This document shows positions 7,703 to 57,000 of a stretch of DNA of 64,000 nt, piece by piece. This DNA is from a virus, in IMG/VR virus record IMGVR_UViG_3300013120_000738, positions 62,001 to 126,000 of that record. One strand, written 5' to 3'. Position 1 is the stretch's first letter. Each line of letters begins with the position of its first letter. The notes under the pieces are model-generated. The model was given only the letters and a program-made list of their open reading frames with translations. It had not been told where the DNA came from and ran no database searches. The position numbers were made by a program, and so were the translations under genes.

Positions 7703-8279
7703 TTTTCATTCTCTTGCACGACGCACATTTACCACAACGTCGCCCATCTTTTCTAGGAAGTTCACAATACCAAACATGCTCAAATAAGCCTTCAAGCTTT
7801 AATTTAGTTACTATCTCTCCCTTATCCATCCATTCTAATGGGAAAACAAGATCACACGATTTCATATTAATAGCTAATAAATATGTAAACGCATATTTAT
7901 ACCATTCCATGTAGTGCCAAATATCATCGCCACGAATATATGCGACTGCTAACTCTTCACCATCATTTAGGTAACCAGTACCAGCAAATAACCAGATATT
8001 TGGCTGTGCGAGCCCATGCGCACCATCACCAAGCGTGATACCACGCTGTGCCGCCTTAATAGTCATCTCACAATGAGGAAATTTATACCCACGAGCACGA
8101 AACTCTTTAATCAACCGCCTCCTAGCACGTTTTTCATATGGACATGCTAGAACTTGATCATGATTGACAGCAATAGTTCTTACATCCTTGCCAGATACAA
8201 GACTGTCAAATAAAAGAAGAGTAGAGTCGCACCCACCGGACCATAAAATTAATCTAGGCTTCTCAGGAGTCCCATCCAC
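7689..8279 (-). CDS. queC: QueC-like 7-cyano-7-deazaguanine synthase
   Basis: A 196-residue ATP-pyrophosphatase of the QueC type. The PP-loop SGGCDST is at residues 14-20, and the C-terminal zinc site CGKCASCKRM at about 181-190. QueC converts 7-carboxy-7-deazaguanine to preQ0 using ammonia and ATP. In phages, queuosine-pathway genes are known to place 7-deazaguanines in DNA. The partner genes (folE, queD, queE, a DNA transglycosylase) are not in this window. It overlaps the polymerase gene downstream of its start by 17 bases. QueC-like is secure; preQ0 as product is inference. Confidence 0.85.
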   Translation of the reverse strand: MDGTPEKPRLILWSGGCDSTLLLFDSLVSGKDVRTIAVNHDQVLACPYEKRARRRLIKEFRARGYKFPHCEMTIKAAQRGITLGDGAHGLAQPNIWLFAGTGYLNDGEELAVAYIRGDDIWHYMEWYKYAFTYLLAINMKSCDLVFPLEWMDKGEIVTKLKLEGLFEHVWYCELPRKDGRRCGKCASCKRMKNADK

Positions 8280-10968
8280 GCTGCAACAACCTTATAATTA
8301 TCTCGCCGCGAGCAAGGGTAAAAGTACCTCTCTTCTCATCGTATTCAACGATCATCTGAACGCCACTACCAGGTACCAGATTGTTCTCATCCTGAATCCC
8401 AAGCTCTCTGGAAAATATCAGAACCAAAGCATTTTGGATACCATCGCTCACGAAAACTCTCGCATATGGTTTCTTATTGCGAGAAATCGAGAATTCTAGA
8501 TCGGTGATCACAACCTCAAGCTTCGGCTCTCCACCATTCTTAGCTACCAACTTTGCATCTTCTATCGTACAATTACCTTCTATAGCATACAGGTCTAGCG
8601 GGGAATGTAAGTAATAGCCAAGATATTTCTTCTCAAATTCTAGCACTTCCTGTAGTGTAAAATCCTCTTCATATAATGCCATCACCTTTTCTGACGAATC
8701 ATCAGGTTTTGGATTCCATTTTTCTAGTTTAGGAGGAATTTTCCTACGTTTCGGGTAGAGTTTCTTATATTCATCAATCTGCCTCTGCCTCTCCTCTTGG
8801 ACAGCTTCTTCTGTCCATCCTTCTTTATTCAGCAGTTTCTGCTTTATCTCACGTTTCAATTGCGTGATATCCTTGCCCGTACAATACTTATACCTATAGT
8901 ATTCCCATGTAGCCCTAGCATTTCTATAGCCCTCGAACCGTCTGAACGCCCCAAGCTTTATAAAGGCTTCCATTACGGTCTTTTTCTTGCCCTTTTCTGC
9001 AATAAATTCATCCAGTGTTGTAAACGTACTACGACCTTCCCACAATGGTGCGGTAGTATCACCTATTCCCTTAATACCGATCAGTCCTTGATTCACCACA
9101 TCGCCGGTAACGGTAAAATCGGCCGTAAGATTTTCTACGTTAGTCGTCTCGAATTTTACACCCCTAACTTTCTTCTTGGGAGGCTGTGTACCAGCGTATG
9201 TGGTAGATGTAGGTTTCCACCCTTCTGAACGTGCTACCCCCATATACCGAACTAGTTTGTCAGGATGACATTCACTCATTACAGAAGCCCACCACTCGGG
9301 TGCGAAATGAGCCTTCAACCAAAGACAGCGATGGGCTACAAGACAATAACTAACAGCATGACTACGATTGAACGCATACCGCCCAAACGTCTTCATCTTC
9401 TCCCACCACTCCCTAGCTTCAGCTTCCCCAAGCACCTTCGAGGCACCAATCACCCATTTCTTCTCTACCGGCTTAAGCTTATCTGCCCATTTCTTAGCGA
9501 CTGCTTTTCGGGCATCTTGAGCTTCTGGTGCTGTAAAATATGCGATCTTCTGCCAAATAGCTTGTAATTGTTCCTGATAAACTATAACACCATGAGTATC
9601 ATTCAAAACCTCCAATATATCAGGATGCAATTTCTTCCGCCATCTACCCCTAGAATCATCACGATTTGCTACTGCCTCTGGGATAGAAGCCATAGGACCA
9701 GGGTGACCCATAGCATTAAACAACATCAAATCCTCGAAATTCCGCACACCATTAGCTAATATACTCTTAGCAAGATCTGTGTCGAATTGAAAAACTCCAT
9801 CTGTCTTCATCTCATTTGCAAGGCGAAGCACATGTTTATCATTGAGGTCGATATAAACCTTTTTACCTTTCCTATCAAAGAAATATCCCGCCCTGTTCTT
9901 AGTTGGGTCTATATCATCCCAACCGTCCATACTCTTACCAAATGATATCCCTCTATTCTGCTCAATAAGCTGACAACAAGTATAAATATACTTGAGTGTC
10001 TTCAGTCCTAGCAAATCCCACTTCTGATATCCGAATTTAGATAACTGAGTATTGCGACCTTCCGTCCACATACTGATCCAATATCCCTTGTTGCTACTCT
10101 TAGCCATAGGGATATTGCCATATAATGGTCTATCAGTAATAATGAGTGCACCAGCATGCATGCCCATATTTCTGATTCGACCAACCAATCTCGTAGCAAG
10201 ACTAATAACCTTCGGATAACTCCTAGCAAATTCTCGTAACTTCTCATGCTCTTTCAGCAATTGACCAATGGTTGGATTTTCTGTATCGGTAGATCCACAA
10301 TTAGGACATTTTGTACCATCATGGGATGTTCTACATTCAACCTTCTCACCAGTCTTCTCATCTATAGTATGCCCTTTACAGACTGACTTGCCGCCGTCTT
10401 TTACATCATCGACATCTTCAGGCAAATTAGTTGTTAATTCATACGCTTCTGTCTTGTCGACAAGTCCTGTCGCATCACAGACATCGATTATAGCTGATTT
10501 GAATTTGTATGTTGTCCAGGTACCAACACTGCAGACAGAACCATAACCATCACTTACATCAGTACCATATTGTGATATAGCATATTCCTTAATAGGATCA
10601 CGTGCCTCAGGAAGACAATCCACATCTACATCAGGCATGTCTGGGTCTTTGCGAAGATCTGACGGAACAAAGCCATGTTCAGTCTTAAACTTCGCTACCT
10701 CAGCGGCCTTTACTGTATTAAGTATAGGCTCTTTTCGGCCTGCTAGAGGATCGTCAGAAACAAGACCTAACAACCAAAGGAAAAGTAGATTATTTCCATC
10801 CGATTGAAATCTCTTACCTTCATTATAATATTGGTTGAATTTAGCTATAGCACCTTGCTTCTCAACCTCAGTCAATTCAAATTTCAATCGTCGGCTATAT
10901 TCCTCTGGCAAGCCTACAACTTTCGAGGTAGCCAACTCCTTCATTTCTTCCCAAGTGATATCAGCCAT
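8263..10968 (-). CDS. dnaE: DNA polymerase III alpha, C-terminal half (split DnaE)
   Basis: A 901-residue catalytic half of a bacterial-type replicative polymerase. The palm aspartates are D115 and D117 in PDVDVD, with the third at about D318 in WDLLGLKTL. PGPMASIPE, VIVYQEQ and FNRSHAVSY are classic DnaE fingers/thumb motifs, and an OB-fold-like region lies near the C-terminus. A four-cysteine insertion (CKGH...C...CPNC) lies at about 195-225. Residues 22-80 resemble a degenerate copy of the palm-entry segment that is also in the N-terminal half (LLFLWLLGL..DDPL against SLVCFLIGI..LDPM). No intein is visible. The PHP domain is in a separate gene at 12.3-13.7 kb. Confidence 0.9.
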   Translation of the reverse strand: MADITWEEMKELATSKVVGLPEEYSRRLKFELTEVEKQGAIAKFNQYYNEGKRFQSDGNNLLFLWLLGLVSDDPLAGRKEPILNTVKAAEVAKFKTEHGFVPSDLRKDPDMPDVDVDCLPEARDPIKEYAISQYGTDVSDGYGSVCSVGTWTTYKFKSAIIDVCDATGLVDKTEAYELTTNLPEDVDDVKDGGKSVCKGHTIDEKTGEKVECRTSHDGTKCPNCGSTDTENPTIGQLLKEHEKLREFARSYPKVISLATRLVGRIRNMGMHAGALIITDRPLYGNIPMAKSSNKGYWISMWTEGRNTQLSKFGYQKWDLLGLKTLKYIYTCCQLIEQNRGISFGKSMDGWDDIDPTKNRAGYFFDRKGKKVYIDLNDKHVLRLANEMKTDGVFQFDTDLAKSILANGVRNFEDLMLFNAMGHPGPMASIPEAVANRDDSRGRWRKKLHPDILEVLNDTHGVIVYQEQLQAIWQKIAYFTAPEAQDARKAVAKKWADKLKPVEKKWVIGASKVLGEAEAREWWEKMKTFGRYAFNRSHAVSYCLVAHRCLWLKAHFAPEWWASVMSECHPDKLVRYMGVARSEGWKPTSTTYAGTQPPKKKVRGVKFETTNVENLTADFTVTGDVVNQGLIGIKGIGDTTAPLWEGRSTFTTLDEFIAEKGKKKTVMEAFIKLGAFRRFEGYRNARATWEYYRYKYCTGKDITQLKREIKQKLLNKEGWTEEAVQEERQRQIDEYKKLYPKRRKIPPKLEKWNPKPDDSSEKVMALYEEDFTLQEVLEFEKKYLGYYLHSPLDLYAIEGNCTIEDAKLVAKNGGEPKLEVVITDLEFSISRNKKPYARVFVSDGIQNALVLIFSRELGIQDENNLVPGSGVQMIVEYDEKRGTFTLARGEIIIRLLQRGWDS

Positions 10969-11750: not shown

Positions 11751-12265
11751 AGAACATTACCAGCAGAATCTCGCAAATCAGGATACGTTGCCTTAGTAAA
11801 AGTACTAAGAGCTCTCAATGTATCTGCCATCCCTTTAAGAACAGCATTTTTGGCAGCTATTTTATCTGGTAATCCCCTACTCTTTCCCAGCATTACTAAT
11901 ATCTCGTCACCTTTTTGCCGGATATTCTCCGGAAATTCCAATCCCTGATTATTAGCTTTGGCTTTTCTCTCATCAACAGATCGCTGGATGAATAAGGCCA
12001 ATGCTTCTACAATGCTGAAAGCTAAACTACTTATCTCCGTTTCCAACTTTTCCAGTTCTTCCTTGGCCTTATCGGGCGTCATCGCCAATATTAAATATAA
12101 TTTATCTATAAAATCTATCGACTTCAATCCGTATATGCATAATTGATTGTTAGGGCCTTGATACATCATCAAGTGCAATTGCATTGAATGCTTCAATTCC
12201 TTCAATGCCTGGCTATTAGAATTTATATTAATTGTAAGTTCAGGAGTATCTCTTTTCTTGGCCAT
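11747..12265 (-). CDS. helical hypothetical protein between the polymerase halves
   Basis: A 172-residue, mostly helical protein of unknown family (DKAKEELEKLETEISSLAF, FIQRSVDERKAKANNQ). It begins 48 bases after the end of the N-terminal polymerase half and overlaps the next gene by 4 bases. It could help join the two polymerase parts, but nothing in the sequence shows that directly. Confidence 0.65.
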   Translation of the reverse strand: MAKKRDTPELTININSNSQALKELKHSMQLHLMMYQGPNNQLCIYGLKSIDFIDKLYLILAMTPDKAKEELEKLETEISSLAFSIVEALALFIQRSVDERKAKANNQGLEFPENIRQKGDEILVMLGKSRGLPDKIAAKNAVLKGMADTLRALSTFTKATYPDLRDSAGNVL

Positions 12266-12313: not shown

Positions 12314-13747
12314 TCATTCAACTATCTCTTTCGGTACTGATAAATCCAGCATATATCCACCACGACTAGAAGCTAAGAATCTATCGAACGATAATCCCCA
12401 TAGCATAGGATCAAGGACATGAATACCGATCAGGAAGCACACTAACGACCCACCAGCACTTCCTCTAGGACTAAATGGCCAGCCGTGTTGTTTCCCAAAT
12501 CTTATCAAATCGCGTGTAATTAAAAAGTAACTAGCAAAACCCTTATCGATAAATCTCTTTAGTTCTATACGAGCTTGATCTATATATGTCACTTCATTAC
12601 CATCAATGAAAAACTTCCGCTTATCCTTATCAAGTCCTCGTTTCTTCAACTCTATTGCTACAATTTCTTTTAGTTTTTTATTAGCATCAGGAATTTCTGG
12701 GATTTTCGGTGCTGTATCAACGGTAAATGGTTCGCATTTATCTGCTATTTGAAGCGTGTTATCACACATCGCCTCGAATATTCTATCATCTACCCCATCA
12801 CTGTACTTGCCATTTTTAAATGTAGCCCATAGCTCTGCTCTAGACTTCATAAATTGTTCATCACTATTCACATGGAATAGATCTGGAGAATCTATAGTTG
12901 TTCCCTGTTCGACAGCCATCATTACTTTCTGTAATATAAAATCTTCTCGACGAAGATAATGGCAATCGTTGGTCAAAGTAAGTGGCAGTCCGAGATGATC
13001 TGCGACAGCAACTAACGTTCTAAACGTCTTATAATCATCCGGAATCCCAGGCATTTGTGTTTCTATATAAAAATCCTCTCCAAAAACTTTACGGAACTTT
13101 CTTACCCAAGCTAATGCAGCGTCTGTACGTTGTTTCCCAGTCCTCTCGAATACAACCTCGTCTTCTTTATTCTTCAATTCTCTATATCGCAATTCATGAC
13201 ACACTGGACCATTAAGGCACCCAGACAGAACTATGAGTCCTTCCTTGAATTCACACAATTTATCAAACCATATACGATTATATTGGGTTTTGCCCATCCC
13301 GAACAAACCCGTATCGTAGGCTTGTGTCGTTAATTTTATTAGATTATCGAATCCTGTTTGGTTCTTACATAGGACTGTCAGGTGTCTGTTTCGGCCGATA
13401 CGATATGATAAATCAGGGTTGGCGTCTCGCCATTCTTTGGATCGTATCTTAAAGCCTCTAGCTACTAAGTCCTGTCGTTGTGGTTCAAAATCATTGAAGT
13501 ATATCTCACAACCTGGAATATACTTCAACCCGTGCTTTTTGAATGCGAGATACATGTCTGGCACTGAAGCCATATGACCATGCTCTGTAGCACTCATTGC
13601 GGGATAACCACGCTTTGCACATTGCTCAGCATATTGCTCTGGCGTGGCTACACCATCTAGCGCAGAAAAGACTGTATGATTATGAAGGTATACAAATTCA
13701 CTTGGGCCTTGATAATCTTTTGGATCGTATTCGTTCGACATTTTCAA
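12314..13747 (-). CDS. dnaE: DNA polymerase III alpha, N-terminal half (PHP domain and start of palm)
   Basis: A 477-residue protein. The PHP domain begins at HNHTVFSALDG (from residue 22) and keeps its likely metal ligands (HNH, TEHGHM, GCEIY, NDCHY), so it may retain 3'-5' exonuclease proofreading. The last 90 residues are the beginning of the DnaE palm (YFLITRDLIRFGKQHGWPFS, then GGSLVCFLIG, LDPM, DRFLASSRGGYML). The gene then stops just before the point where the catalytic PDVDVD strand should follow. That strand is in the separate gene at 8.3-11.0 kb. The protein cannot polymerise alone. Confidence 0.9.
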   Translation of the reverse strand: MKMSNEYDPKDYQGPSEFVYLHNHTVFSALDGVATPEQYAEQCAKRGYPAMSATEHGHMASVPDMYLAFKKHGLKYIPGCEIYFNDFEPQRQDLVARGFKIRSKEWRDANPDLSYRIGRNRHLTVLCKNQTGFDNLIKLTTQAYDTGLFGMGKTQYNRIWFDKLCEFKEGLIVLSGCLNGPVCHELRYRELKNKEDEVVFERTGKQRTDAALAWVRKFRKVFGEDFYIETQMPGIPDDYKTFRTLVAVADHLGLPLTLTNDCHYLRREDFILQKVMMAVEQGTTIDSPDLFHVNSDEQFMKSRAELWATFKNGKYSDGVDDRIFEAMCDNTLQIADKCEPFTVDTAPKIPEIPDANKKLKEIVAIELKKRGLDKDKRKFFIDGNEVTYIDQARIELKRFIDKGFASYFLITRDLIRFGKQHGWPFSPRGSAGGSLVCFLIGIHVLDPMLWGLSFDRFLASSRGGYMLDLSVPKEIVE

Positions 13748-19949: not shown

Positions 19950-21047
19950 TCAATCTGCGATTCCCTTTTCGGCGGCCTCTAAACATCCTGTAGCAACACA
20001 GAATAAAGGCCTATCCGACTTGGTCACAGTTCCAATATCAAATGGTGGGCCTATCTCGTCAAACTTCTTGGCGACACGCTTAGTAAAGCCCTCAGGGGAA
20101 CTACTGCCGCCAGCCATATAAACATTTATAGCACCCTCTAGTCGTGCTTCCGACTCGTGCTCCTCAAAGCCCTTGATAATACCGTCAATCACGGTGCTGA
20201 TAAGGACATCATAGTGTAGTACGACATCCATACCTACACGATCATCTGGTTCACTACCAGGTGTGAGATTTACATCCTGTTTTCTCTTTGATACTGTGGT
20301 AGGTGTCTCTTTTGCTACTTTCCTACGGGTCTTCAAGGCTTGGGGGTTATAACCATGACGCATTGCTACTTGTTCATCTATCCAGTCGCCTGCGCCTACC
20401 CAGCAGAAAGAATATATCTCAAGGCCATATTTCACGTAGCTGACAGTAACAGTACCAGCACCCCATGAGATCCCAATACCTGTACCATCTTCGCTCATAT
20501 CGATTACGATAGCATGGGATTCTTTTATCGCGTTATGTGTTATCTTAGCGTCGGTTTCATATCCTTCAATAATAATGTTGACTACACGTTCATGATAATC
20601 AACATTTAATTCCTTATTGAGTGATGGAGCGGTGGTGCAGTAACAAACCTGTACCTCGTCACCAAATTTTCCAATCTCCTTTTCAGCCATCTCCATTAGG
20701 CCTTGGACAATCGTTCCTAGGATTGTGATGGCTTCTTCGTCAGCAGATATTCCACCTTCTGCCATTGGTCTACGTAGTGTGTCGTTCTTGGCGTATGCAA
20801 ATTCTTCTGCATCTTCTCCAAGTACGATGGCTTCTCCTGTTTCGGGCATTTCTACCCATTTTGCAGGTCTTTTTGTACCGTCTGCCCTCATTTTGCTAGG
20901 ATCGTCTAGCATGTTCCGAATGAATGGCGTTGCTCTTTCAAATGGCCAATACCCATTGATTTCTGAGATGTAGTTGACCTTTTCATTATCCGTGCGGTAA
21001 GCAAGGACTACTGTTCTTGTGCCAACATCGATACCCAAGTGTCTCAT
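19950..21047 (-). CDS. actin-like ATPase (MreB/ParM/Hsp70 fold)
   Basis: A 365-residue protein of actin size. The phosphate-1 loop is LGIDVGTRTVVLAYR at the very N-terminus, the phosphate-2 loop SWGAGTVTVSYV, and the adenosine loop YMAGGSSSPEGF. These are the three hallmark loops of the actin superfamily. ATG 21047 has AGGAG 7 bases upstream, so I reject an in-frame extension to 21479 that overlaps another gene. Known phage actins segregate or position phage DNA; filament formation here is inference. It is convergent with the carboxypeptidase gene with no gap. Confidence 0.85.
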   Translation of the reverse strand: MRHLGIDVGTRTVVLAYRTDNEKVNYISEINGYWPFERATPFIRNMLDDPSKMRADGTKRPAKWVEMPETGEAIVLGEDAEEFAYAKNDTLRRPMAEGGISADEEAITILGTIVQGLMEMAEKEIGKFGDEVQVCYCTTAPSLNKELNVDYHERVVNIIIEGYETDAKITHNAIKESHAIVIDMSEDGTGIGISWGAGTVTVSYVKYGLEIYSFCWVGAGDWIDEQVAMRHGYNPQALKTRRKVAKETPTTVSKRKQDVNLTPGSEPDDRVGMDVVLHYDVLISTVIDGIIKGFEEHESEARLEGAINVYMAGGSSSPEGFTKRVAKKFDEIGPPFDIGTVTKSDRPLFCVATGCLEAAEKGIAD

Positions 21048-21174
21048 GAGTACTCTCCTACCTTTATGGACGTCACCCAACTTATATACACTATAATCGG
21101 ATGAAGGTTTCGGTTCTAGAATTGAAATACGTTTGGTTTGCCCCTCAGACCGAGGGACGTCTTTTGCGCGGTGG

Positions 21175-21519
21175 TCACCCTTTTCGGAGTGAACAGGCTT
21201 TGATTTTGCGGGCGGTGGGATTACTTTGGGAACCGGAGTCGGTATCTTTTTGTTTGAGGTCTTTTCGTTTGATTTTGTAGTAGGTTTTTGGTCCGATTCG
21301 CGGGAAGGTGGCACGTTGATCGGTTTCGGTCGTTTCGGAAGTGACGTCACCCTTTGATCCACCACCCTCGGTTTCACTTCCATCTCTGCTAGAAATTGAT
21401 AAATCATCGATAGGGGAAGCCTCACTACCTCGCGAAGTCTTTTCAGCACTTCCGATCGTTGGGCTTTCTTCGGATCCACAGAACAGTTGCCTTAATAAAT
21501 TAATTACTTTCTTCATCAT
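21175..21519 (-). CDS. low-complexity hypothetical protein upstream of the actin-like gene
   Basis: A 114-residue protein. A short hydrophobic N-terminus (MMKKVINLLRQLFCG) is followed by Ser/Gly/Glu/Thr-rich sequence and a basic end. It begins 20 bases inside the upstream membrane-protein gene and ends 127 bases before the actin start. The actin frame is also open across it, so about 300 bases are open in two frames. I favour this frame because of its position and the strong internal start of actin. Function is unknown. Confidence 0.5.
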   Translation of the reverse strand: MMKKVINLLRQLFCGSEESPTIGSAEKTSRGSEASPIDDLSISSRDGSETEGGGSKGDVTSETTETDQRATFPRIGPKTYYKIKRKDLKQKDTDSGSQSNPTARKIKACSLRKG

Positions 21520-26796: not shown

Positions 26797-27075
26797 ATGG
26801 CCACAAAAAAGAAGGCCGCCAAGAAGAGAGTCGCTAAGAAATCAACCAAGAAAGCTTCGCGGAAGAAAAAGCGACAACAAAGGCGAGCAAACCGACGCGC
26901 CAAAATCCAACTAGTCACCAACTATGTCGAAGACTTCAGGGAAGCGAATCCCAACGGCACAAAAGAACAGTGCTTCTCGGCCGTTGGTGCACAGCTCCGA
27001 AAGGATTTCAAGGGCAATCCTTTCATAGACATCTTGATCACTATCTTGAAGATGCTGCTTGATATCTACTTCTAG
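26797..27075 (+). CDS. Lys/Arg-rich histone-H1-like small protein
   Basis: A 92-residue protein. The first 40 residues are almost all Lys, Arg and Ala (KKAAKKRVAKKSTKKASRKK), like the disordered tails of bacterial histone H1-like proteins; the rest forms short helices with a hydrophobic end (IDILITILKMLLDIYF). AGGAG lies 9 bases upstream. It probably binds DNA or RNA non-specifically, and could be a virion DNA-packing protein. It ends 4 bases inside a convergent small gene. Confidence 0.7.
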   Translation: MATKKKAAKKRVAKKSTKKASRKKKRQQRRANRRAKIQLVTNYVEDFREANPNGTKEQCFSAVGAQLRKDFKGNPFIDILITILKMLLDIYF

Positions 27076-27263
27076 AAATACCCCGGTATTTCATTAGCAG
27101 CTCTATCTCTACCTGACCAGCCTCTCTTTAGGCAATCCTTAACAGAAGGTACGAGCCATTCGTATAGTTCTGTAAAGGAATCAATATGTAAATCCATGTG
27201 AAATTCTTCAGTGGGAACATACCATTTAGCATATGTCATTATTTGGCATAAGTGTTGTGTCAT
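27072..27263 (-). CDS. small hypothetical protein
   Basis: A 63-residue protein (or 55 if it starts at the ATG 27239), with no recognised family. It is Trp/Tyr-rich and mixed. Its start overlaps the end of the neighbouring 61-residue gene, an arrangement that supports both being real. Confidence 0.45.
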   Translation of the reverse strand: MTQHLCQIMTYAKWYVPTEEFHMDLHIDSFTELYEWLVPSVKDCLKRGWSGRDRAANEIPGYF

Positions 27264-27411
27264 ATAACTCGAATAGTATTAGTACATATCTTCTATCATT
27301 TCTTTGGCTAACTGTTATATCTCCATCGCTGTATAATACCGCCTGGTTAGATTTAAACCTGTCTTTGACTTCTTCGTAAATTCCTTTAATTATTGCTTGA
27401 AGAATTTTCAT
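27226..27411 (-). CDS. small hypothetical protein
   Basis: A 61-residue protein: an N-terminal helix (ILQAIIKGIYEEVKDRF) then beta strands (AVLYSDGDITV, RYVLILFELYD). The same helix-then-strands layout occurs in the proteins at 28974-29240 and 36654-37085, so they may be distant paralogues. It is divergent from the HNH gene at 27460, with an 8-bp inverted repeat between them. Confidence 0.5.
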   Translation of the reverse strand: MKILQAIIKGIYEEVKDRFKSNQAVLYSDGDITVSQRNDRRYVLILFELYDTTLMPNNDIC

Positions 27412-27418
27412 TCAAAAT

Positions 27419-27441
27419 TAAGGTAGGTTATTTCTACCTTA
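27419..27441. other. 8-bp inverted repeat between divergent genes
   Basis: TAAGGTAG and CTACCTTA form a perfect 8-bp stem with a 7-base loop. It lies between the start of the 61-residue gene (minus) and the HNH gene (plus). There is no T-run on either side, so a terminator is unlikely. It could be an operator or could mask ribosome sites. Confidence 0.4.
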
Positions 27442-27459
27442 CCCCACCTTCAAGGTATT

Positions 27460-27915
27460 ATGACAACACAAACTAAATTCTGCCGCACATGTCAGACAGA
27501 AAAACCTATTGAAGAATTCGATAAACTCTACAACAAAAAATACCCTCATTATAGGAGAAGTAAATGTAAAAAATGCTACAGAGAAAAGCCAAGTTTCAAA
27601 AAATATGACCGTCGCAAACACAATAGGAGAAGAATTCGAAAGCAAGTCGCAATGAAAATACGAGCTATCGAATATTTAGGTGGTAAATGCCAAGGCGAAT
27701 CATGTCCATTACCACAAGGTTACAAAATTCCATATTGTGCATTTGATTTTCACCATCGAGATCCTAAAATGAAGTCGTTTTACATCAACAATTTTATTAG
27801 AAAAAAGAATGCTGCAGAATCTTGTTGGGAAGAATTACGAACTGAACTAGATAAATGTGATTTATTATGTTGTATATGTCATAGAATAGTACATCAAAAC
27901 AATGTTGATTTATAG
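27460..27915 (+). CDS. HNH endonuclease-like protein with N-terminal zinc finger
   Basis: A 151-residue protein. The N-terminus is a four-cysteine zinc site (CRTC, CKKC), followed by a basic Lys/Arg stretch. The C-terminal half has FDFHHRDPKMK, equivalent to the HNH double His with Asp, and ends with CDLLCCICHRIVH, the last helix with the catalytic-type His. This is a common free-standing homing-type nuclease. It directly precedes the gene-free structured region. Confidence 0.8.
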   Translation: MTTQTKFCRTCQTEKPIEEFDKLYNKKYPHYRRSKCKKCYREKPSFKKYDRRKHNRRRIRKQVAMKIRAIEYLGGKCQGESCPLPQGYKIPYCAFDFHHRDPKMKSFYINNFIRKKNAAESCWEELRTELDKCDLLCCICHRIVHQNNVDL

Positions 27916-27979
27916 TTAGGCTCCCCCCTACCTTTATATCTTTAAAGAATTTTTAAAGTTTAAGTAGGATTTAGCGATC

Positions 27980-28665
27980 TTGTCACTAAAGAATCACAGA
28001 TAAGCACCATCATCTAATGCCAAGGGGAAGCCATGCGATGGTCGAAATCTGTGTCCACTCTCCCGCCACCGTCATCTCCCTCCCAGGAGACCGGCCGCTC
28101 TATCAGTCTTTGGTGCCTCGGGAGCTTCGAGTTACTTTATTCTCTCATTAAATAGGAAGTCTTGATTAGGCAGATGGGTAGCAACGGGTTCTCCATCTTG
28201 GCTATAGCCTTCACCCTGATTGTTCGTGGCGCATACACGTGGTCGCCGTGCCAAAGCCCGTTGGTCCGGCCCCCGTCAATCATTTATCAAGACCTCCAAG
28301 ACTGCCAGTGTTTCCAAGTCATGCTCTGTCAACATTTCATTTTCAGCGATTCAATAATTCATTTTCAGCGATTTCAACTACCTCGTGAGCACTTTCTTGT
28401 CGGTACACTGGTTAACGTTGGTAAAGAGATTAAAGCCTACGGTCACTCGATCGGTGGCTGAGAGGTTCCACCCCTCATAAACCAGGTGTTCCTTTTAGAT
28501 CGTACATCATGTACTACGGCTAGGGCAGGGGACGCACCTTCGGTGACACCCAGACACAAGGTCATAAAAACACCCTCAAAGAACCTAAATGCTCTAGCCA
28601 ATCGAGCTTAATAGAATACGAACTGTGGCAAATAGGGCCACTATGTTTGGCAAATGCCAAAGCAG
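27980..28665 (+). ncRNA. candidate large structured non-coding RNA
   Basis: The interval 27916-28683 has no convincing gene and is richer in G and C than its surroundings. By eye it forms many perfect helices, several nested: CACAGAT 27995-28001 with 28047-28053, enclosing ACCATC 28006-28011 with 28037-28042; CTCCCG 28060-28065 with 28119-28124, then CACC with GGTG inside; GTCTTGAT 28159-28166 with ATCAAGAC 28286-28293, enclosing two more stems; CCAGTGT 28305-28311 with 28405-28411; AGGTTC 28463-28468 with 28581-28586; and hairpins at 28625-28641 and 28646-28661. GGCTAG 28518-28523 with 28594-28599 would make a pseudoknot. Size and phage context recall the GOLLD and ROOL classes; class, ends and strand are not certain. 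Confidence 0.65.
28336..28373 (+). repeat. tandem 16-base direct repeat inside the structured region
   Basis: TTCATTTTCAGCGATT occurs twice, at 28336-28351 and 28358-28373, with six bases between. It lies in the least paired part of the candidate RNA, in the apical region enclosed by the 28305-28311/28405-28411 stem. Confidence 0.85.
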
Positions 28666-28683
28666 TACCAACACTGCCGAGAA

Positions 28684-28902
28684 CTAAATACGAAGGGCCG
28701 AATCCGACTCAAAAGTGCTATTATCACAGATAGCACAATCACCATTCGGATAACGTGCACAATCAGGGTGAAAAATAACCCTTGGTGTGTTAGTCTTCTG
28801 TAGTTCTACTTCGATCTTTTCCCACATCTCATCGATCGAGATATGGCAGCGGATGAACTCACTTACAAGATAATCAACGAATGTCATTTCTGGATCTTTC
28901 AA
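28684..28902 (-). CDS. small hypothetical protein with a C-terminal cysteine cluster
   Basis: A 72-residue protein. The C-terminal half has HPDCARYPNGDCAICD, which could bind zinc. The N-terminus is helical. It is on the strand opposite to the preceding structured region and ends just beside it. Unknown family. Confidence 0.5.
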   Translation of the reverse strand: MKDPEMTFVDYLVSEFIRCHISIDEMWEKIEVELQKTNTPRVIFHPDCARYPNGDCAICDNSTFESDSALRI

Positions 28903-28973
28903 ATAGCTTCTCTACATGTATTTTCTTATGCTAGCACAATGTACGAAAATAGCATATGTAAAGCACAACAACG

Positions 28974-29240
28974 CTATGGAACGATACACCCATCACATAT
29001 ATGAAGAATCCTGTCCATAAAATCCTCGTCATGTATCGAAATATTATAATGCATTACTCTTTTAGCAGTATCTAGACGGATAATATCTGAATCATCTCGT
29101 ATAGTAATACCAAACATTTCATGGTCCTCATCAATGCCAAATCTAATTATTCGACCATCTACACATTTTATAGCCTTAACAGCAAATATCCAAGGCGTAT
29201 CATAAAGTGCTGCAAAGATAGCTTTAATTATATCATCCAT
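28974..29240 (-). CDS. small hypothetical protein
   Basis: An 88-residue protein: an N-terminal helix (DDIIKAIFAALYD), then strands (VDGRIIRFGID, FGITIRDDSDIIRLD) and a final helix. The layout resembles the proteins at 27226-27411 and 36654-37085. It starts one base from the end of the sbcD-like gene on the same strand, so the two are co-transcribed. Confidence 0.6.
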   Translation of the reverse strand: MDDIIKAIFAALYDTPWIFAVKAIKCVDGRIIRFGIDEDHEMFGITIRDDSDIIRLDTAKRVMHYNISIHDEDFMDRILHICDGCIVP

Positions 29241-30341
29241 TTATACTTCTGCCTCTTCCAAGGCATATATTTCATCAGCTTCTTGAATAACATCTGTATG
29301 TGCAGTAACCAAGACCTTCTCATCTAAATCCTTGGCACCCTTCTCCTTATCCTTCTCATACCAAGACCTGAATATATCCTTTGACGTATCCTGTTGTTCT
29401 TTCTGTACTACCTCCTGGTCTCTCTTCTGGAAAAGACTCATCCAACGAACACCAACAGCTCCCATTCCGGTTAATTGCTGATGGATACTCCGTTTTTCAT
29501 CCGTTGTATAATCACGTTGAATAGCAACCCTGACAACATTTCCACTTATATCTTCTTGTGCCTTTTCCGGCAACAAATCATCAAGTAATGTACAGAATTG
29601 TGGGGCTGGGGCCTCATCCGGCAATAACTTAGCTCCGGCTTTCCATATGTTGATAAATTTGTGATCCCCAGATTCCAAATCAAGACAATAAAAACCATGA
29701 GCTATATCACCCTCATCGAATTTGAAGGGGATTAGTGAACCCGGATAGAAAGTATTATCCCCAATCTGCTGCCTGTTATGGAAATGCCCTGTATAAATCC
29801 TCCTAAAAGGTGAATCATCAAAATTGATTATTGACCAATTCTGAAGGAGAAAGCAAGTATTCATTTTAGCATTACAAACACCCACATGGGTAAAGAGATA
29901 ATCACCATCCTCAGCCCGTTTATTCATCCTTGATAGGACTTTCCTGTAGGATTTCTCGAAGCTGATAAATGGTAATACCCAAAAACGGGTATCATCTAGT
30001 TGAAGTATTTTCAAGTCCTCTATTACTGTAAGGTGCTTTCTAAGTATTTGTAAACTATTGATTTTCCATGAGTACCTGAGGAACATGTCGTGGTTGCCGG
30101 GGAAGACTATCCATTGTTGATTGTATGGATCTTCTGAGACCTCTTCAAAGAACCTTGCAATATGCGAAAGTGTCTCTATATCTAGGGCCTTACGATCATG
30201 AAACAAATCACCAAGGACCACAACAGTGTCAATAGAAGCTACTTTACAGTATTCTCGCAGTACTTTGCAGGCCCATAGAATGTCTCGCAACCTTCCAGGT
30301 ACACCAAAATGAATATCAGCCGTAATAGCGATTTTTGACAT
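29241..30341 (-). CDS. sbcD: SbcD/Mre11-like nuclease subunit
   Basis: A 366-residue metallophosphoesterase (T4 gp47 type). Metal-binding motifs in order: DIHFG (9-13), GDLFHD, FPGNHDMF, THVGV and TGHFHNRQ. With the SbcC/Rad50-like ATPase at 34.8 kb it should form the complex that processes DNA ends and hairpins and supports recombination-dependent replication. The C-terminal 80 residues are charged and probably contact the partner. In most phages the two genes lie together; here they are 4.5 kb apart and on opposite strands. Confidence 0.9.
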   Translation of the reverse strand: MSKIAITADIHFGVPGRLRDILWACKVLREYCKVASIDTVVVLGDLFHDRKALDIETLSHIARFFEEVSEDPYNQQWIVFPGNHDMFLRYSWKINSLQILRKHLTVIEDLKILQLDDTRFWVLPFISFEKSYRKVLSRMNKRAEDGDYLFTHVGVCNAKMNTCFLLQNWSIINFDDSPFRRIYTGHFHNRQQIGDNTFYPGSLIPFKFDEGDIAHGFYCLDLESGDHKFINIWKAGAKLLPDEAPAPQFCTLLDDLLPEKAQEDISGNVVRVAIQRDYTTDEKRSIHQQLTGMGAVGVRWMSLFQKRDQEVVQKEQQDTSKDIFRSWYEKDKEKGAKDLDEKVLVTAHTDVIQEADEIYALEEAEV

Positions 30342-47412: not shown

Positions 47413-48579
47413 ATGCAATCTGGAACGTTCAATGTAGTTACCGATGGACAATGGGGCTCCTGTGGAAAAGGTTTGATATCAACAGCAATCGCCGACAGAT
47501 ATCGACCAAGCGTCATATCAACGACCAATATGGCAAATGCGGGGCATACCGCAGTCGATAGTGATGGAGCCACATTCATAGCTAAGGCCCTACCAGCCCC
47601 AGCAATTCTTGGAAAATGGCGAACTGATTATCTTCCATATATCGTAATAGGACCAACAGCCGCATTTCATGCCAAGCAAATGGCAAAGGAAGTCGCCGAA
47701 ACCGAATGTGCTCCAAGGCTCGTGATACATCCAAGAGCGGGCATAATCACAGAGCAACACCAAGAAATCGAGAATCAACTCAAAGGTGGGACAAAACACG
47801 TCGCTAGTACCATGCAAGGTTGTGGGGCATTCCTTGCCGACAAGATTATGAGGCGGCCAGATTTGAAGCTTGCAGGCGATACAGAATTCACCCAATACTC
47901 AGGGTATACTCTCGAAAAAGCACTCGCGGCATGTTTACGTGGTACAAAATGGCAAAGCCTCTGCGTAGACTTATCGATACCACGCATATTACAAATGTTC
48001 ATGGAGGTGGGCAATACTATCCTACATGAAGGATCTCAAGGATTCAGCCTGGATATTAACCACGGCTCACATTATCCTCAGTGCACCAGCAGAAGCACGA
48101 CGGCTATGCAAAACATGGCCGACATGGGTATTACTCATCATCACATGGGTAGAGTAATATTGGTCATCAGGCCAGCGCCTATTCGCGTCGGTAATGTAGT
48201 TGAAGGTGGTAAAACTGTAGGATATTCTGGCGATTGTTATCCTGACCATACAGAAACAACTTGGGAAGCTATTGGTGAGGCTTGTGGAGCACCACAAGAA
48301 ACGTTTAAAGGTGAATTAACTACAGTCACAAAAAGATTACGACGGGTTTTCACGTTCTCCGATATCCAATTTAAGGAAGCTGTTGCGATTAATGGAGCGA
48401 CCGAGATTGCTCTTAATTTCGCAAACTATATTGATTGGAAGTGTTATGGAACTAATAACCCAAACAATCTTCCTCCCAAAGTCACCGATTTCATAAAGAA
48501 ATTAGAAGATCTAGGTGGCGTCAAAGTCACTATAGTTGGCACTGGTCCAAGAAACGACCATGTTTGTTTCTTAGACTAA
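47413..48579 (+). CDS. purZ: PurZ-like adenylosuccinate synthetase homologue (2-aminoadenine pathway)
   Basis: A 388-residue relative of PurA. The P-loop reads GQWGSCGKG (12-20), where PurA has WGDEGKG. Loss of the catalytic Asp in favour of Ser is the reported feature of phage PurZ, which uses dGMP instead of IMP to make the precursor of 2-aminoadenine. NAGHT (about 42-46), the IMP-loop equivalent, is kept. A dATP hydrolase (DatZ) or MazZ is not seen in this window. Z replacement of A in the phage DNA is therefore inferred. Confidence 0.85.
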   Translation: MQSGTFNVVTDGQWGSCGKGLISTAIADRYRPSVISTTNMANAGHTAVDSDGATFIAKALPAPAILGKWRTDYLPYIVIGPTAAFHAKQMAKEVAETECAPRLVIHPRAGIITEQHQEIENQLKGGTKHVASTMQGCGAFLADKIMRRPDLKLAGDTEFTQYSGYTLEKALAACLRGTKWQSLCVDLSIPRILQMFMEVGNTILHEGSQGFSLDINHGSHYPQCTSRSTTAMQNMADMGITHHHMGRVILVIRPAPIRVGNVVEGGKTVGYSGDCYPDHTETTWEAIGEACGAPQETFKGELTTVTKRLRRVFTFSDIQFKEAVAINGATEIALNFANYIDWKCYGTNNPNNLPPKVTDFIKKLEDLGGVKVTIVGTGPRNDHVCFLD

Positions 48580-51061: not shown

Positions 51062-54000
51062 ATGTCTACAGATGCCTTCGATGACGTAAAAAGACCTATT
51101 AAAGGTCAAATGCGCGAGATCTCACAAGCTACCCACGTAGAAGTAATTTCTGCTCAACAAGAAATTATAACCCCAGCATTTGGATTACCATCGCCAAATG
51201 TCGAAGTAGCTATGCGCGGTTTAGCGTATGGGAAAACTCAAAGAGTCACATCACCTCAAGAAGTAGGCTCAATCACCCCAATTCCACCTCCTTCAGGCTC
51301 ATTAAGTTCAAGTGTTGTAACAGCATCTGCTTATGGCCTAACCGGAGATGGGGCGACAGCGTTCAAAAAGACTGCAGCCGGTTTACGTTATGCTAAAGAG
51401 AGTTCGAAATTACGAACGGCATTAACCAATACTGCGTTTGGTGTTGTTAAACAAGACATATTCTATTCAGGATCTCCAGATCCGTGTTCGGAAGATCCTG
51501 CAGATAACTGTAAAGTAGATCTAGCAGTTGTCTTGGATGATACTGGTAGTATGGGTGGTACTATCAACGGTGTCAAAAGTGGTATCCAAGGAGTTGCTGA
51601 TTTAGTCGAATTAGCTGTTGGTCAGAATTACCGTTTTAGTTTAACAACATTCAAAGACAGCGTCACAACTAGATTACCTTTTAGCAATCTATGCGGATCA
51701 GCATCGCTAACTGCATTTAAAAGTGCCGTTAACGGAGTAGGTGCTAGTGGTGGTGGTGACGGTCCAGAATGGTCAGCAGCAGCCGTAAAACATGCGGCAG
51801 AAGGTAGAGCTGGAAGCTGGCGGGAAGGTAATATTGTACGAGTACTAATAGTACTAACTGATAATATAAATAATTATGGGGTTGGATCAAGTGTAGATTC
51901 CGGAGTATCAGTCAATGCGGCGGCTTCAGCATGTGCGGCTATGAATATCAGAGTCATTTTTGCTGGTACACCTATGTGGGGTACTATGCTAAATGAAGCC
52001 GATACCTATATCAGCATGACCGGCGGGGTTATGATCCAGACTGCTAGGGATGGTCTGGGCGTTGATACTCTATTAACAAGTTACATCTTCGCCCTCTGTG
52101 GTGCTGGTGAGCCGCTTTCCCCAGAATGTGAAGGCGGTATCGATAAGATAGTAAACGGTAAATTCGATACTGGTATAGAAGGGTGGATAGACAAGACGAC
52201 TCTATCGGGGCGATCAATAGCCTGGTATGATACCGATGAACGTAAAGCACTTGAATTGGACGGTGCTGCCGGACAAACAGCGACAGGTATGGAAGGTGGA
52301 GACCTAGTCGTACTTGGATTAGATGTCTTAACCGAGGTTGTTCCACCTACCTCTTCTGCGGCCACAGATCTCCGATCACAGGCGGCGCTTGAACTCCCAG
52401 AAGGATATTCTATAATAGAACATGCACTATGGGATACAGGTGCATTATTACCAGGCCCTAATAATACTGGTGCCACACTTGGTTGGGTAGGTCTTGGTGC
52501 TCATGTCGTAGATCATCCGCCACTCGAGAAAAGATTACAATTGACAGGGTATAATGATGGGTTTTCTACTAGTACTTTCGATGACAAATACGTAGCAGCT
52601 ACGGCCGATGGGGATATTAATATATATGACACGGATGGGACATACGAATCTACACTACTAGCAACGTCTGATCATATAATCAACGTAGAAATTGATATGG
52701 TTCGCGGCCATGTCTTCTACCTTATAAATGGCCAAGAAATTTACAGAATGAATTATGATGGTACTGGGTCACCAATACTTATCGCGTCTCATGTCCCAAT
52801 AGGTGGACAAATATATGCATTCGATATTGACCCAATCAATAATGTTCTAGTACACAGTTCAGTCCGTGGCACTACCTATGAGATATTAATCAACAATTTA
52901 GATAATCACGTCAATCCAGGAACACCAACTGGGTACCGCGTAGCCAGGACAACAACCGATGAGGTAACACATATAAAAATAGATACCAATTCCGGACATA
53001 TTTATTGGATAGAAGAAGGCGTCGGAACAGCGTCATTAAAGAGAGCCTCTTACGACGGAGATGTACAAAATATTGTAACTGATTTATGGGGTGGGTCAGG
53101 GACCGGCAGTGAAAGAGTTTCTGGCATAGATATAGGATTCGATCCAGCCAATCCTATAGAGACTACTATTTATTTGAGTTTGATAAATGTTTCAACCGCA
53201 TCAATCGCTAAAGTAAGAATTGAAACACTTGCTGATAATACAATATCATCAGTCACATATACTGAGACCTTTATTGATTGTGGGGGTGCTCCTCCGCAAG
53301 ATGTCCTATTCGACCCGATTGCTGGTAGAATTGTAGCACCACAAGGCCCAATAGAAGATGCGGGCCAAGTAGCACAATATCTATTAGGCGGTAGAAGTAC
53401 ATCACCAACATATTTCCAGCCATCACCAACCAAAACACCAAGAAGTGTTAAAAGAATCATCACAAACGGGGCGGCGATAGCCCAAACATTTGCGGTCGCT
53501 ACTGATGATCTTTTCGCATTTTCAGCCAATATCGATACAGTAACAGACGGTTCAGTTATTATCCAACTAGTAGATGGTGACACAGTACTAAATGAAGCAT
53601 ATTATAATCCAGGTGCCACATCATTTGCCGCCGTCCCAGATATTCCCGCAGTTGTTATTAACGGAGAAACAGAAAATACATTTACCAGATTTCGCCCGCA
53701 AGTCCTTGGTGGGACTGTACTAGATCGCAGTGAATACCCTGTTGTTGTGAAATGTGGGCATGGAGGAGTGCCATATTTTGGTAGTGGTGTGCTAATAACA
53801 GATAGGCATGTTTTAACTGCAGCTCATGTTACTTATCGCGCTAGTGGTACTGCATTAGCCGACAATGAACAAATAGTACAAGTCTATACTGGGGGTTCAC
53901 CGCCAGAAGTGAATATGCTCTCCAGAAAGATTTATAGACATCCTGACTGGAATCCAGCCGCACTTTCTGATCCTAGTCTATTAGGTCTAGACACCACAAA

Positions 54001-57000
54001 TGATATAGCAATAATCGAACTTGCCGGAGGTATACAAGGCCTTAGTCACGGTGACGCGGGACCACCTGGGTCACCAGTTATGGGGCATCCATTAATTTCA
54101 TCAGACTTATGGGGCGGTAGAGACGCTGACCCTGTGGTAGGCGATGATATAGATGTCTATGGTTATGGACCAGGAGAAGTACCATTTGATCCAGACGATT
54201 ACGGGATATTGAGGCGTGGTACTACTGAAGTTGAAGAAGTCACAAGTACTCTGATTAAATGGCAGTATATGCCAGGTGAAGAAACAACATTGCCTGGTGA
54301 TTCCGGTGGACCATTGATGGTTAATAAAAGTGGTCTGATCCATGTTGTTGGTGTTGTGTCTGGTGGTCCAGCGTCACCGGGGTTTGGCGGTGGGATTCAT
54401 TTTAATACCAAAGTTTCTGCATATGCAGAGTGGATATATGGTATTATAAATGGTCCGCAAATAACAGCAACCGTACCAGAAAGTGGGCAAGTAACCGCAG
54501 TTGTCAGATTGGTATCAAATAATGGTGTGCTAGGCGAAGCTGATATTGAAGCAGCATTGACAACATATCAGACTGGTGTACCATCAGGTCTTGGTAGACT
54601 GAGATACCAACTTAGAAACAGTAGTGAAGCTGTATTAGCTGGCGATAGTGTAACAATAGAAGACTTACAACCAGCTGGAGAATCAACAAGATTTAACATT
54701 TCTGCTGAAGTGCCGTCAGATGGCGAAGTAGAAGTGTTCTTCACTGCTGAGGATGGTGGTGCCGCAAAATTTATTGTCGATAATGTCTTGTTATGTCTGT
54801 CTAAAATAGATGATTGTGGCCCAGGCCAACGTAATGCCGTTCTCAATCCGAATTTTGAGAGAGGAGTTGAAAATTGGACTGATGGTACTGGTGTACCATT
54901 ACCAACGACAGATAGATTATATTGGGACCAAGATATTCAAGCTATTGTCACCAGCCTTGCTGGAGCTCCAGAAATACGGACCGCAATAACCGACCTAAGA
55001 CCAGATACTAATATGGTTCTGGACTTTGAAATCGCGGTTATGAGTCCGGCTACTATTCCTACTCTGACATTGGCATTCGGTGCCAGAAATATTTCTGGTG
55101 ATATTCTAGCATCTGACACGATAACGCTTGGTGATATAGAACCGCTACCAGCAAGAGTACAAGTAACATTCAGCGCACCCGCCGATGGCCAAGCCATCAT
55201 CTTTATGAAGAGTGGTGGTCTTTCAGGGCTTGAATATAGCGGTACCACAAAGATCCGCAATGTTTTGGTTTGTAATCAGGCTGGTAGATGTGAATCAGGG
55301 TATGATAGGATATCATACGACGATTTTGAACTTAGTAAAGGTACTTGGAGTGGTGGTACACTTAATGCAATAGATGGATCAGTAACATTAGGGGCTGCTT
55401 CCGGAGCGACTCCTGGCGAAACCTTATCACAAAGCTTTACCGACATCACTCCAGGCACCGAATTTCAATTAACGTTTAACAGTATAACTAATGCAAACGG
55501 TGTAGGAAGATATTTAGTATCATTCATCCACGGAAGTGTAACAGATCAGTTTACAACTGATGGTGCTGCTGGGATCAAGACCTATGAGATCGTAGCCCAA
55601 GCAGACATAATAACAGTGCGCATCCGTAATCTAGCAGAATACGATGCGGATCTCGATGACATATTAATATGCGAAAAAGCTCCACCACCTTGTGATGGTA
55701 GTATAGAAGGATTGAGAGGACATGTTGAATTTAAAGGTATCCCGCGACGGCCAATAAATGTGTTCAATGCTATCGCAAGATACACAATACGAGACCCAGA
55801 TGACCCATTTGACGTATCAGAAGTAACACATGCAGCAGAAACGGAAGGACATCTAGGTGCGGCCACGTGCGATTTATGGAAACAGCAAGGTGATGGAGGA
55901 TTTGCAAGAACTGATGTTCTAGGCTCTAACCTCACGTTGATAAATGATATAGATGATGGAGATTTAGTAACCATAACATCCAGACCAAATTGGCTGTGGT
56001 CTATACCACAAACTGGAGATCTTGGTCAGGATTCGCTTATTATTGAATTCCCAGATCCTCCGAGTGGGTTGATAGAATCTGTTGACATATACCTGTTAAT
56101 GAACCGTATCGAACCCAGCGGTTCAGACACAGCCCCAGTTTACCCACCTCCGCTAGATTGCCTACCAGACCCTGCAATCCAGCTCAATACACTTATATCA
56201 TTCACCAATAGCTTGGGATTGAATAAAGAATTCAGCGTGACTAAAGATTTGGCAGATTTGTTAGAAGAAGAAACGGATTATACTCCGGGTTTCGGACGTC
56301 CTCCTTGGGATACAGATACGCCTTTAGGACTTGGGTTTTCTGGCACTACAGCGAGATGGGAGAAATTCAGTTTCCCACTTGATTTGCCAGATGGTAAAGG
56401 TCTTGATCAATGCACGACCCCAATATTCTTTTCAGCTATCGGCACAGGCCAAATCAACTTTGGTGAATTTTATATATCGACTACAGGCGGTATTTTTGTT
56501 GACCCTTGTGAAGCTGTTATCGAAGTAGAAGAGATTGGTTCTGGATCGGCAACTAACGAAATCCAATCAATAAGAGTCCCCGCATCAACAGGTGGATCAT
56601 TCGATATCAGCCTCACATACAGTGGCACAACAGATACTGTTACTGTCCCATATGGGTCAACAGCAGCTGAATTAGCAGCAAAACTGGCCGAACTTAGTAA
56701 TATTGGTAATATTGCTAATGTTAGTGTAGGTGGCACAGGCTCAGATATTGACCCATACCTAGTAGAATTCACTGGCAGCCTAGCTGGTGTTGATATGCCA
56801 TACCTGATACCTGATGGTACCAACCTAGAAGGTGCGGCAAGTGCCTACGTTGTTACTGATTTCGATGGTACACCTAATGAACGAAAGACAGTTGCAAAGA
56901 AAATAACCACCACGAATGACTTCTTTATCACATTCGAAGGTGTCACATCAGTCCCATTTGCCCATAGCGAACCGATTGGTATCTTCGAGGCCAAATTGGA

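Follow-up and report, generated by a model that had tools for sequence, protein, structure and literature searches.

A candidate large, intricately folded phage RNA that matches no RNA family on record

The region at about 27915-28691 of the window, by which we mean the 64,000-nucleotide stretch analyzed here out of a 227,725-base virus record, appears to encode a large RNA with an intricate fold, which distant relatives of this giant phage also keep and for which no recorded RNA family gives a match. The observation underlying this statement is confirmed and its reading as an RNA is supported; transcription and function are inferred. A sequence-only reading had proposed a large structured noncoding RNA at 27980-28665, by implication on the plus strand. 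The candidate itself gained comparative support, namely, homologues, covariation, matches in held-out records, and the lack of a shared reading frame. Its ends and strand were not supported: conservation across nine full-length copies defines the wider extent given above, and the minus strand is the probable sense strand.

Several of the features on which that proposal was based can be seen in the window alone. The gap of about 0.75 kb without a gene, located between an HNH open reading frame (ORF) and minus-strand ORFs, holds a single ORF of 99 amino acids with a TTG start (28162-28461). The region is indeed richer in GC, with values of 0.43 to 0.51 over 27900-28799 (200-base windows) against 0.30 to 0.39 in the left flank (27000-27999) and 0.33 to 0.41 in the right flank (28700-29299), and many perfect stems are found in the sequence. 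The 771-base stretch alone, however, folded no better than shuffled sequences (z-scores of -0.68 on the plus strand and -0.64 on the minus strand; 6 of 20 shuffles per strand folded as well). Stems in one sequence are therefore not enough, and support for the structure comes from the homologues.

Homologues and search models

Besides the window, 11 virus records contain a homologue, which makes 12 records in all; two of these copies, L124 (record G012) and L125 (record G020), are near-identical to each other. A helicase used as single-sequence query led to L002, which carries a clear homologue of the RNA. SbcD alignments were the source of most other records: an SbcD alignment search yielded L008 to L014, and a motif scan yielded L024. 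SbcD as a single-sequence query found nothing, and a nucleotide search of a phage collection with the copies of the window, L002, and L009 returned chance-level matches or none.

Eight copies were aligned to build two covariance models, R1 (5' core, plus reading) and R2 (3' domain, plus reading). R1 matched 12 of 36 virus records, namely, nine of ten in a first set and 3 of 26, all at E < 1e-6, in a second set with more distant SbcD proteins; each matching record has one copy of the RNA. Record G006, absent from the model, was matched by R1 at an E-value of 6.5e-18. The three matches in the second set (G010, 3.3e-10; G012, 1.6e-8; G020, 1.2e-7) are all among the 16 records with 35 to 48% SbcD identity, and there was no R1 match in the 10 records with SbcD identity below 30%. 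Searched against whole records, R2 matched the same nine of ten (G006 at 4.4e-8, with one further weak row there at 0.14). In the more distant set it matched G010 at 1.2e-4, in the expected order and orientation relative to R1, and three other records only at 0.3 to 0.5. We did not count G022 (R1, 0.103) and L030 (1.1) as members, and the 58-kb fragment G008 matched neither model. The E-values are rough due to a shortened calibration, several records are fragments, and nine full-length copies are few.

Pattern and motif scans also returned sequences that we rejected by reading. Those in L003, L004, and L006, from the first pattern scan, were chance matches in apparent coding sequence; those in L019, L021, L025, and L026, from the second, were one common coding-like sequence without the other motifs; and a third scan found no record beyond those already found. 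Five matches came out of a motif scan over 84,980 bacterial and archaeal genomes, all of them coding-like and, by our reading, none a copy. A conserved protein frame through the region would have refuted the RNA reading, and none was seen across the homologues, over which the ORFs differ in frame, strand, and place.

The nine full-length copies are 587 to 802 nt long, counted from the C-run up to AAATAC at the other end. In L124 and L125, which are compact copies of about 450 nt by eye, H1, H2, and the GUAUUU 5' motif are missing. The window copy carries an extra domain at about 28146-28300, which is absent at that place in most other copies.

Anatomy, covariation, and strand of the predicted fold

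On the minus reading, the order from 5' to 3' is GUAUUU(A), H11, an optional hairpin, H10, H9 with an inner domain, H8, H6 with H7 and variable linkers, AACUCGAA, H3/H4/H5, H1/H2, an AU-rich stretch, and the G-rich 3' strand. The features are as follows (window coordinates; pairs changed on both sides are alignment pairs).

27915-28691, minus (inferred): whole RNA element, with 5' GUAUUUAG at 28691 and the G-rich 3' end at about 27915
28685-28691, minus: 5' end motif GUAUUU(A), in 9/9 full-length copies, not seen in L124 and L125
28662-28665 with 28674-28677, minus: terminal hairpin H11, 5/6 pairs changed on both sides
28625-28629 with 28637-28641, minus: hairpin H10, 5-bp stem and 7-nt loop, 3/5 pairs changed on both sides
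28518-28527 with 28590-28599, minus: helix H9, closing an internal domain, 6/7 pairs changed on both sides
28502-28506 with 28510-28514, minus: hairpin H8, short loop, seen by eye in most copies, no separate score
28135-28145 with 28425-28435, minus: long-range helix H6, enclosing H7 and variable linkers
28315-28318 with 28396-28399, minus: helix H7, inside H6, weak
28146-28300, minus: insertion of the window copy according to the alignments, bounded by 28155-28166 with 28286-28297 (inverted repeat I16)
28126-28133, minus: conserved AACUCGAA adjoining H3, in 9/9 full-length copies; AACUCAAA in L123, L124, and L125
28060-28124, minus: three-way junction H3/H4/H5, kept in 12/12 copies
28060-28065 with 28119-28124, minus: H3, 7/7 pairs changed on both sides
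28075-28079 with 28086-28090, minus: H4, loop GGGA, 6/6 pairs changed on both sides
28096-28098 with 28113-28115, minus: H5, part of the three-way junction
27995-28001 with 28047-28053 and 28007-28011 with 28037-28041, minus: H1 stacked on H2, covarying, absent in L124 and L125
27915-27932 with the H2 loop at about 28024-28032, minus: pseudoknot of the G-rich 3' strand (C-run on plus), from own-versus-swapped duplexes
27460-27915, plus: HNH endonuclease ORF (PHROG 2255, E 3e-22), abutting the RNA
Between the HNH ORF end at 27915 (plus) and minus-strand ORFs beyond 28684: gene gap

The internal loop between H1 and H2 has a conserved UUCGA, and the 5' GUAUUU(A) may pair with CUAAAAG at about 28491-28498. 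A direct repeat noted in the sequence-only reading is real as 22 nt at 91% (28329-28350 and 28351-28372), yet it sits inside a linker that is variable among the homologues; short direct repeats occur in this linker both in the window (28329-28372) and in L010 (about 11850-12000), and their sequences differ. A perfect 14-nt inverted repeat (28210-28223 and 28759-28772) has one arm in the window-only insertion and the other outside the RNA.

Comparison of the copies establishes a covarying, multidomain predicted fold that includes a pseudoknot and a long-range helix. In the five-helix core of eight sequences, 20 of 28 pairs changed on both sides, a count that none of 500 shuffles reached; this alignment was plain MAFFT output, and the structure was written by hand from it. 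The count was 21 of 28 when the held-out G006 was added and 26 of 28 with twelve sequences (again 0 of 500 shuffles), where 93.7% of cells were paired versus 36 to 47% with the partner slid by 1 to 3 columns. The alignments of nine and twelve rows were made by fitting to the model and are therefore biased in its favor. For the 3' domain, 14 of 18 pairs changed on both sides, with the structure taken from RNAalifold on the same alignment. MAFFT put the terminal hairpin in the wrong place, so no model of the final 110 nt (A10) was built.

Long-range contacts were assessed by partner swapping, in which the 5' segment of one copy was duplexed with 3' segments taken from the others and the energies were compared with those of the copies' own duplexes; the segment windows were anchored by hand on conserved motifs. 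H6 was supported at 0 of 50,000 permutations and, in a rerun, at 0 of 20,000 on either strand; H7 alone was weak (P = 0.015). For the pseudoknot, partner swapping gave P values of 8e-5 and 2e-4 on plus and 0 of 20,000 on minus, and a run-length test gave a P value of 0.001. The supported pseudoknot joins about 27915-27932 to the loop at about 28012-28036; the sequence-only reading had also listed a possible pseudoknot, which may or may not be this one.

The transcribed strand is probably the minus strand, on moderate evidence that includes no transcript data. In three alignments, RNAalifold gave GU:AC cell counts of 60:13, 29:7, and 16:7 on minus, compared with 12:16, 14:14, and 6:9 on plus, where AC mismatches equal or exceed GU pairs. 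Since RNAalifold favors GU on any strand that it is given, the failure on plus is the telling part. The consensus energy was lower on minus in all four alignments, and the energy gain over column shuffles was larger on minus in four of four; the z-score was better on plus for A6 and A11. Mean consensus Watson-Crick pair probabilities amounted to 0.844 on minus versus 0.749 on plus for the core and to 0.797 versus 0.634 for the 3' domain, with plus scoring better in two of nine core and two of eight 3'-domain sequences. A strand-neutral count (GU 15 versus AC 20) is alone not decisive, and the unpaired composition is mixed, since the core favors minus and the 3' domain partly plus (A > U). GU pairs are rare in the core (3 GU and 12 AC cells on plus in A11), fewer than expected of a typical RNA. 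The RNAalifold GU:AC counts and the consensus energies speak against an RNA on the plus strand that starts near the C-run under an upstream TATA-like motif and runs convergently towards sbcD, a reading that we consider unlikely. In its favor, a TATA-like sequence lies about 10 to 14 nt before the C-run in seven or eight of nine copies (by eye), and a divergent gene lies upstream in seven or eight of nine. Because TATA is self-complementary, it was dropped as strand evidence; it could also belong to the neighboring gene. No sigma-70-like promoter was found, nor was an intrinsic terminator seen by eye at either element end, which counts against the explanation favored below. TAAATAC was rejected as a general phage promoter, as it is not enriched in the window (13 found versus 13.4 expected).

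Comparison with known RNAs

Searched with Rfam release 15, the 64-kb window had no hits at gathering thresholds, and allowing E-values as high as 5 over 27800-28900 added none; a search of L002 and nine record regions returned nothing beyond chance-level rows. The earlier statement that the region cannot be assigned to GOLLD or ROOL is thus upheld for the window and the homologues tested. HEARO (HNH-associated RNA), whose model is present in Rfam, was rejected, since an HNH ORF was noted at the window copy only and there was no Rfam match. A group I or II intron was rejected, since the nine full-length copies are intergenic and there was no Rfam match. The manA and wcaG motifs are much smaller and cis-regulatory, and unlike them this RNA has no Rfam match; they resemble it in being structured RNAs in T4-like phage genomes, found in cyanophages (PMC2864571).

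The GOLLD, ROOL, and OLE profiles are included in Rfam, according to PMC12286853. OLE, of about 600 nt, is likewise described as ornate and well conserved; it comes, however, from Gram-positive extremophile bacteria, and no Rfam match to it was obtained here. GOLLD is similarly phage encoded, very large, of unequally conserved domains, and without known function (PMC12286853). It is often found near tRNA islands, whereas this RNA has no tRNA nearby, lies beside sbcD, and has no Rfam match; ARAGORN found no tRNA gene in the window or in the nine loci. ROOL is also phage encoded, about 600 to 700 nt long, pseudoknotted, and without a known partner (same article). Of the ROOL traits of phage origin, a length of about 600 nt, and several pseudoknots, size and phage context fit, and one pseudoknot is supported here. 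Unlike ROOL, the RNA has no Rfam match and no tRNA island, and no copy was recognized by reading the matches of the motif scan of 84,980 bacterial and archaeal genomes, so it was not seen in prophages. Both GOLLD and ROOL form homo-oligomeric RNA-only cages (PMC12286853), and the makeup of conserved domains, expandable linkers, and a pseudoknot is like theirs. No description of the RNA was found in one open-access literature collection; a large published catalogue of phage RNA candidates may include the element.

Genomic context and possible mode of action

In the window and L002, the RNA has a collagen-like structural gene on one side and sbcD on the other. The sbcD gene is on the GUAUUU side and codirectional on the minus reading in six of nine full-length copies, with at most one small codirectional ORF between; in L002 and L009, other-strand genes intervene. 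In L002, L009, and G006 (three of nine), the nearest ORF on the GUAUUU side is on the other strand and reads away, so no read-through from sbcD would be expected in these copies. In G006, the collagen-like gene and sbcD are together and the RNA is about 9.5 kb off, with other genes between, a placement easier to reconcile with a free-standing RNA than with a cis-acting leader.

We consider it somewhat more probable than not that this is a free-standing large structured RNA of a large-phage lineage, transcribed from the minus strand and acting in trans as a scaffold-type RNA, alone or with a protein. An RNA acting in trans is suggested by the conserved fold, the absence of a frame, the single copy per record, the independent position in G006, and the exchangeable neighbors; there are no transcript data, and function, oligomerization, and partners are inferred. 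Under this proposal, the RNA would be transcribed during infection as its own unit and would fold into a compact particle, with insertions accommodated in its variable linkers. It might then serve in trans as a scaffold, either by itself, in the homo-oligomeric manner of GOLLD and ROOL, or together with a protein of the phage or its host. A bolder version, possible but doubtful, is that it represents a third, unrelated giant phage RNA class beside GOLLD and ROOL that assembles as an RNA-only homo-oligomer during large-phage infection; oligomerization is again inferred. If this were true, RNA assemblies would have arisen more than twice in phages. Only a few RNAs as large and complex as this are known from phages, with roles still open. 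Having two covariance models, twelve members, and the compact variants L124 and L125, the class is tractable for probing, native gels, and cryo-electron microscopy, and with it one could test whether large phage RNAs of unrelated origin act in the same way.

Among the other explanations, a very large cis-acting 5' leader, in which the minus RNA would control a codirectional gene, e.g., by pairing of its G-rich 3' end with the internal loop, draws on the G-run side of the locus, where the next gene is codirectional with the RNA (minus reading) in eight of nine full-length copies. In L002 and L009 an ORF begins with ATG about 10 nt after the G-run, which could be a ribosome site there, but the other seven lack an ATG-started ORF of at least 25 codons beginning within 60 nt of it. 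The identity of this gene varies: judged by size and place, it is collagen-like in L008 and L011; it is a small ORF in L002 and L009, another gene in L010, L013, and L024, and in G006 a 948-amino-acid ORF without a PHROG match, whereas the window has the HNH gene on the strand opposite to the RNA. With downstream genes that differ and a G006 copy apart from both usual neighbors, the shared downstream gene or pathway expected of a leader is lacking, and we regard this reading as improbable. Far less credible is a ribozyme or a selfish element of intron type that would have spread together with the HNH endonuclease next to it, a reading to which we give almost no weight. Phage introns often carry HNH genes, and an HNH ORF abuts the window copy, but none was noted beside the other eight full-length copies (ORF maps, with only some neighbors PHROG tested), and for this reason the ORF is not taken as part of the RNA. 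Moreover, no gene is interrupted, there is one copy per record, mostly in the same place, and no Rfam intron model matched. It is also very improbable that the conserved structure acts in single-stranded DNA, as a replication, recombination, or packaging signal, rather than as an RNA. The few GU pairs of the 5' core on either strand and the neighboring sbcD, which encodes a palindrome-nuclease subunit, would suit such a signal; the minus strand, however, has wobble pairs where plus has mismatches, and pseudoknotted multidomain folds of such size are typical of RNA.

Other genes of the window were noted in passing. The ORF at 47413-48579 (plus) encodes a PurZ-like protein (NCBIfam PurZ, 223 bits, below the cutoff of 300; PHROG 1211, E 4e-59), a possible sign of 2-aminoadenine DNA in a phage with a DNA polymerase III alpha. 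The latter is split into 8263-10968 and 12314-13747 (minus), with the break at about profile residues 398 to 401 and three small ORFs without a Pfam match between the halves. A Volactin-type actin-like protein (Pfam, E 2e-39) is encoded at 19950-21479 (minus), and a 3,128-amino-acid ORF at 51062-60448 (plus) contains, towards the C terminus, short stretches that match families of tail sheath and major tail proteins.
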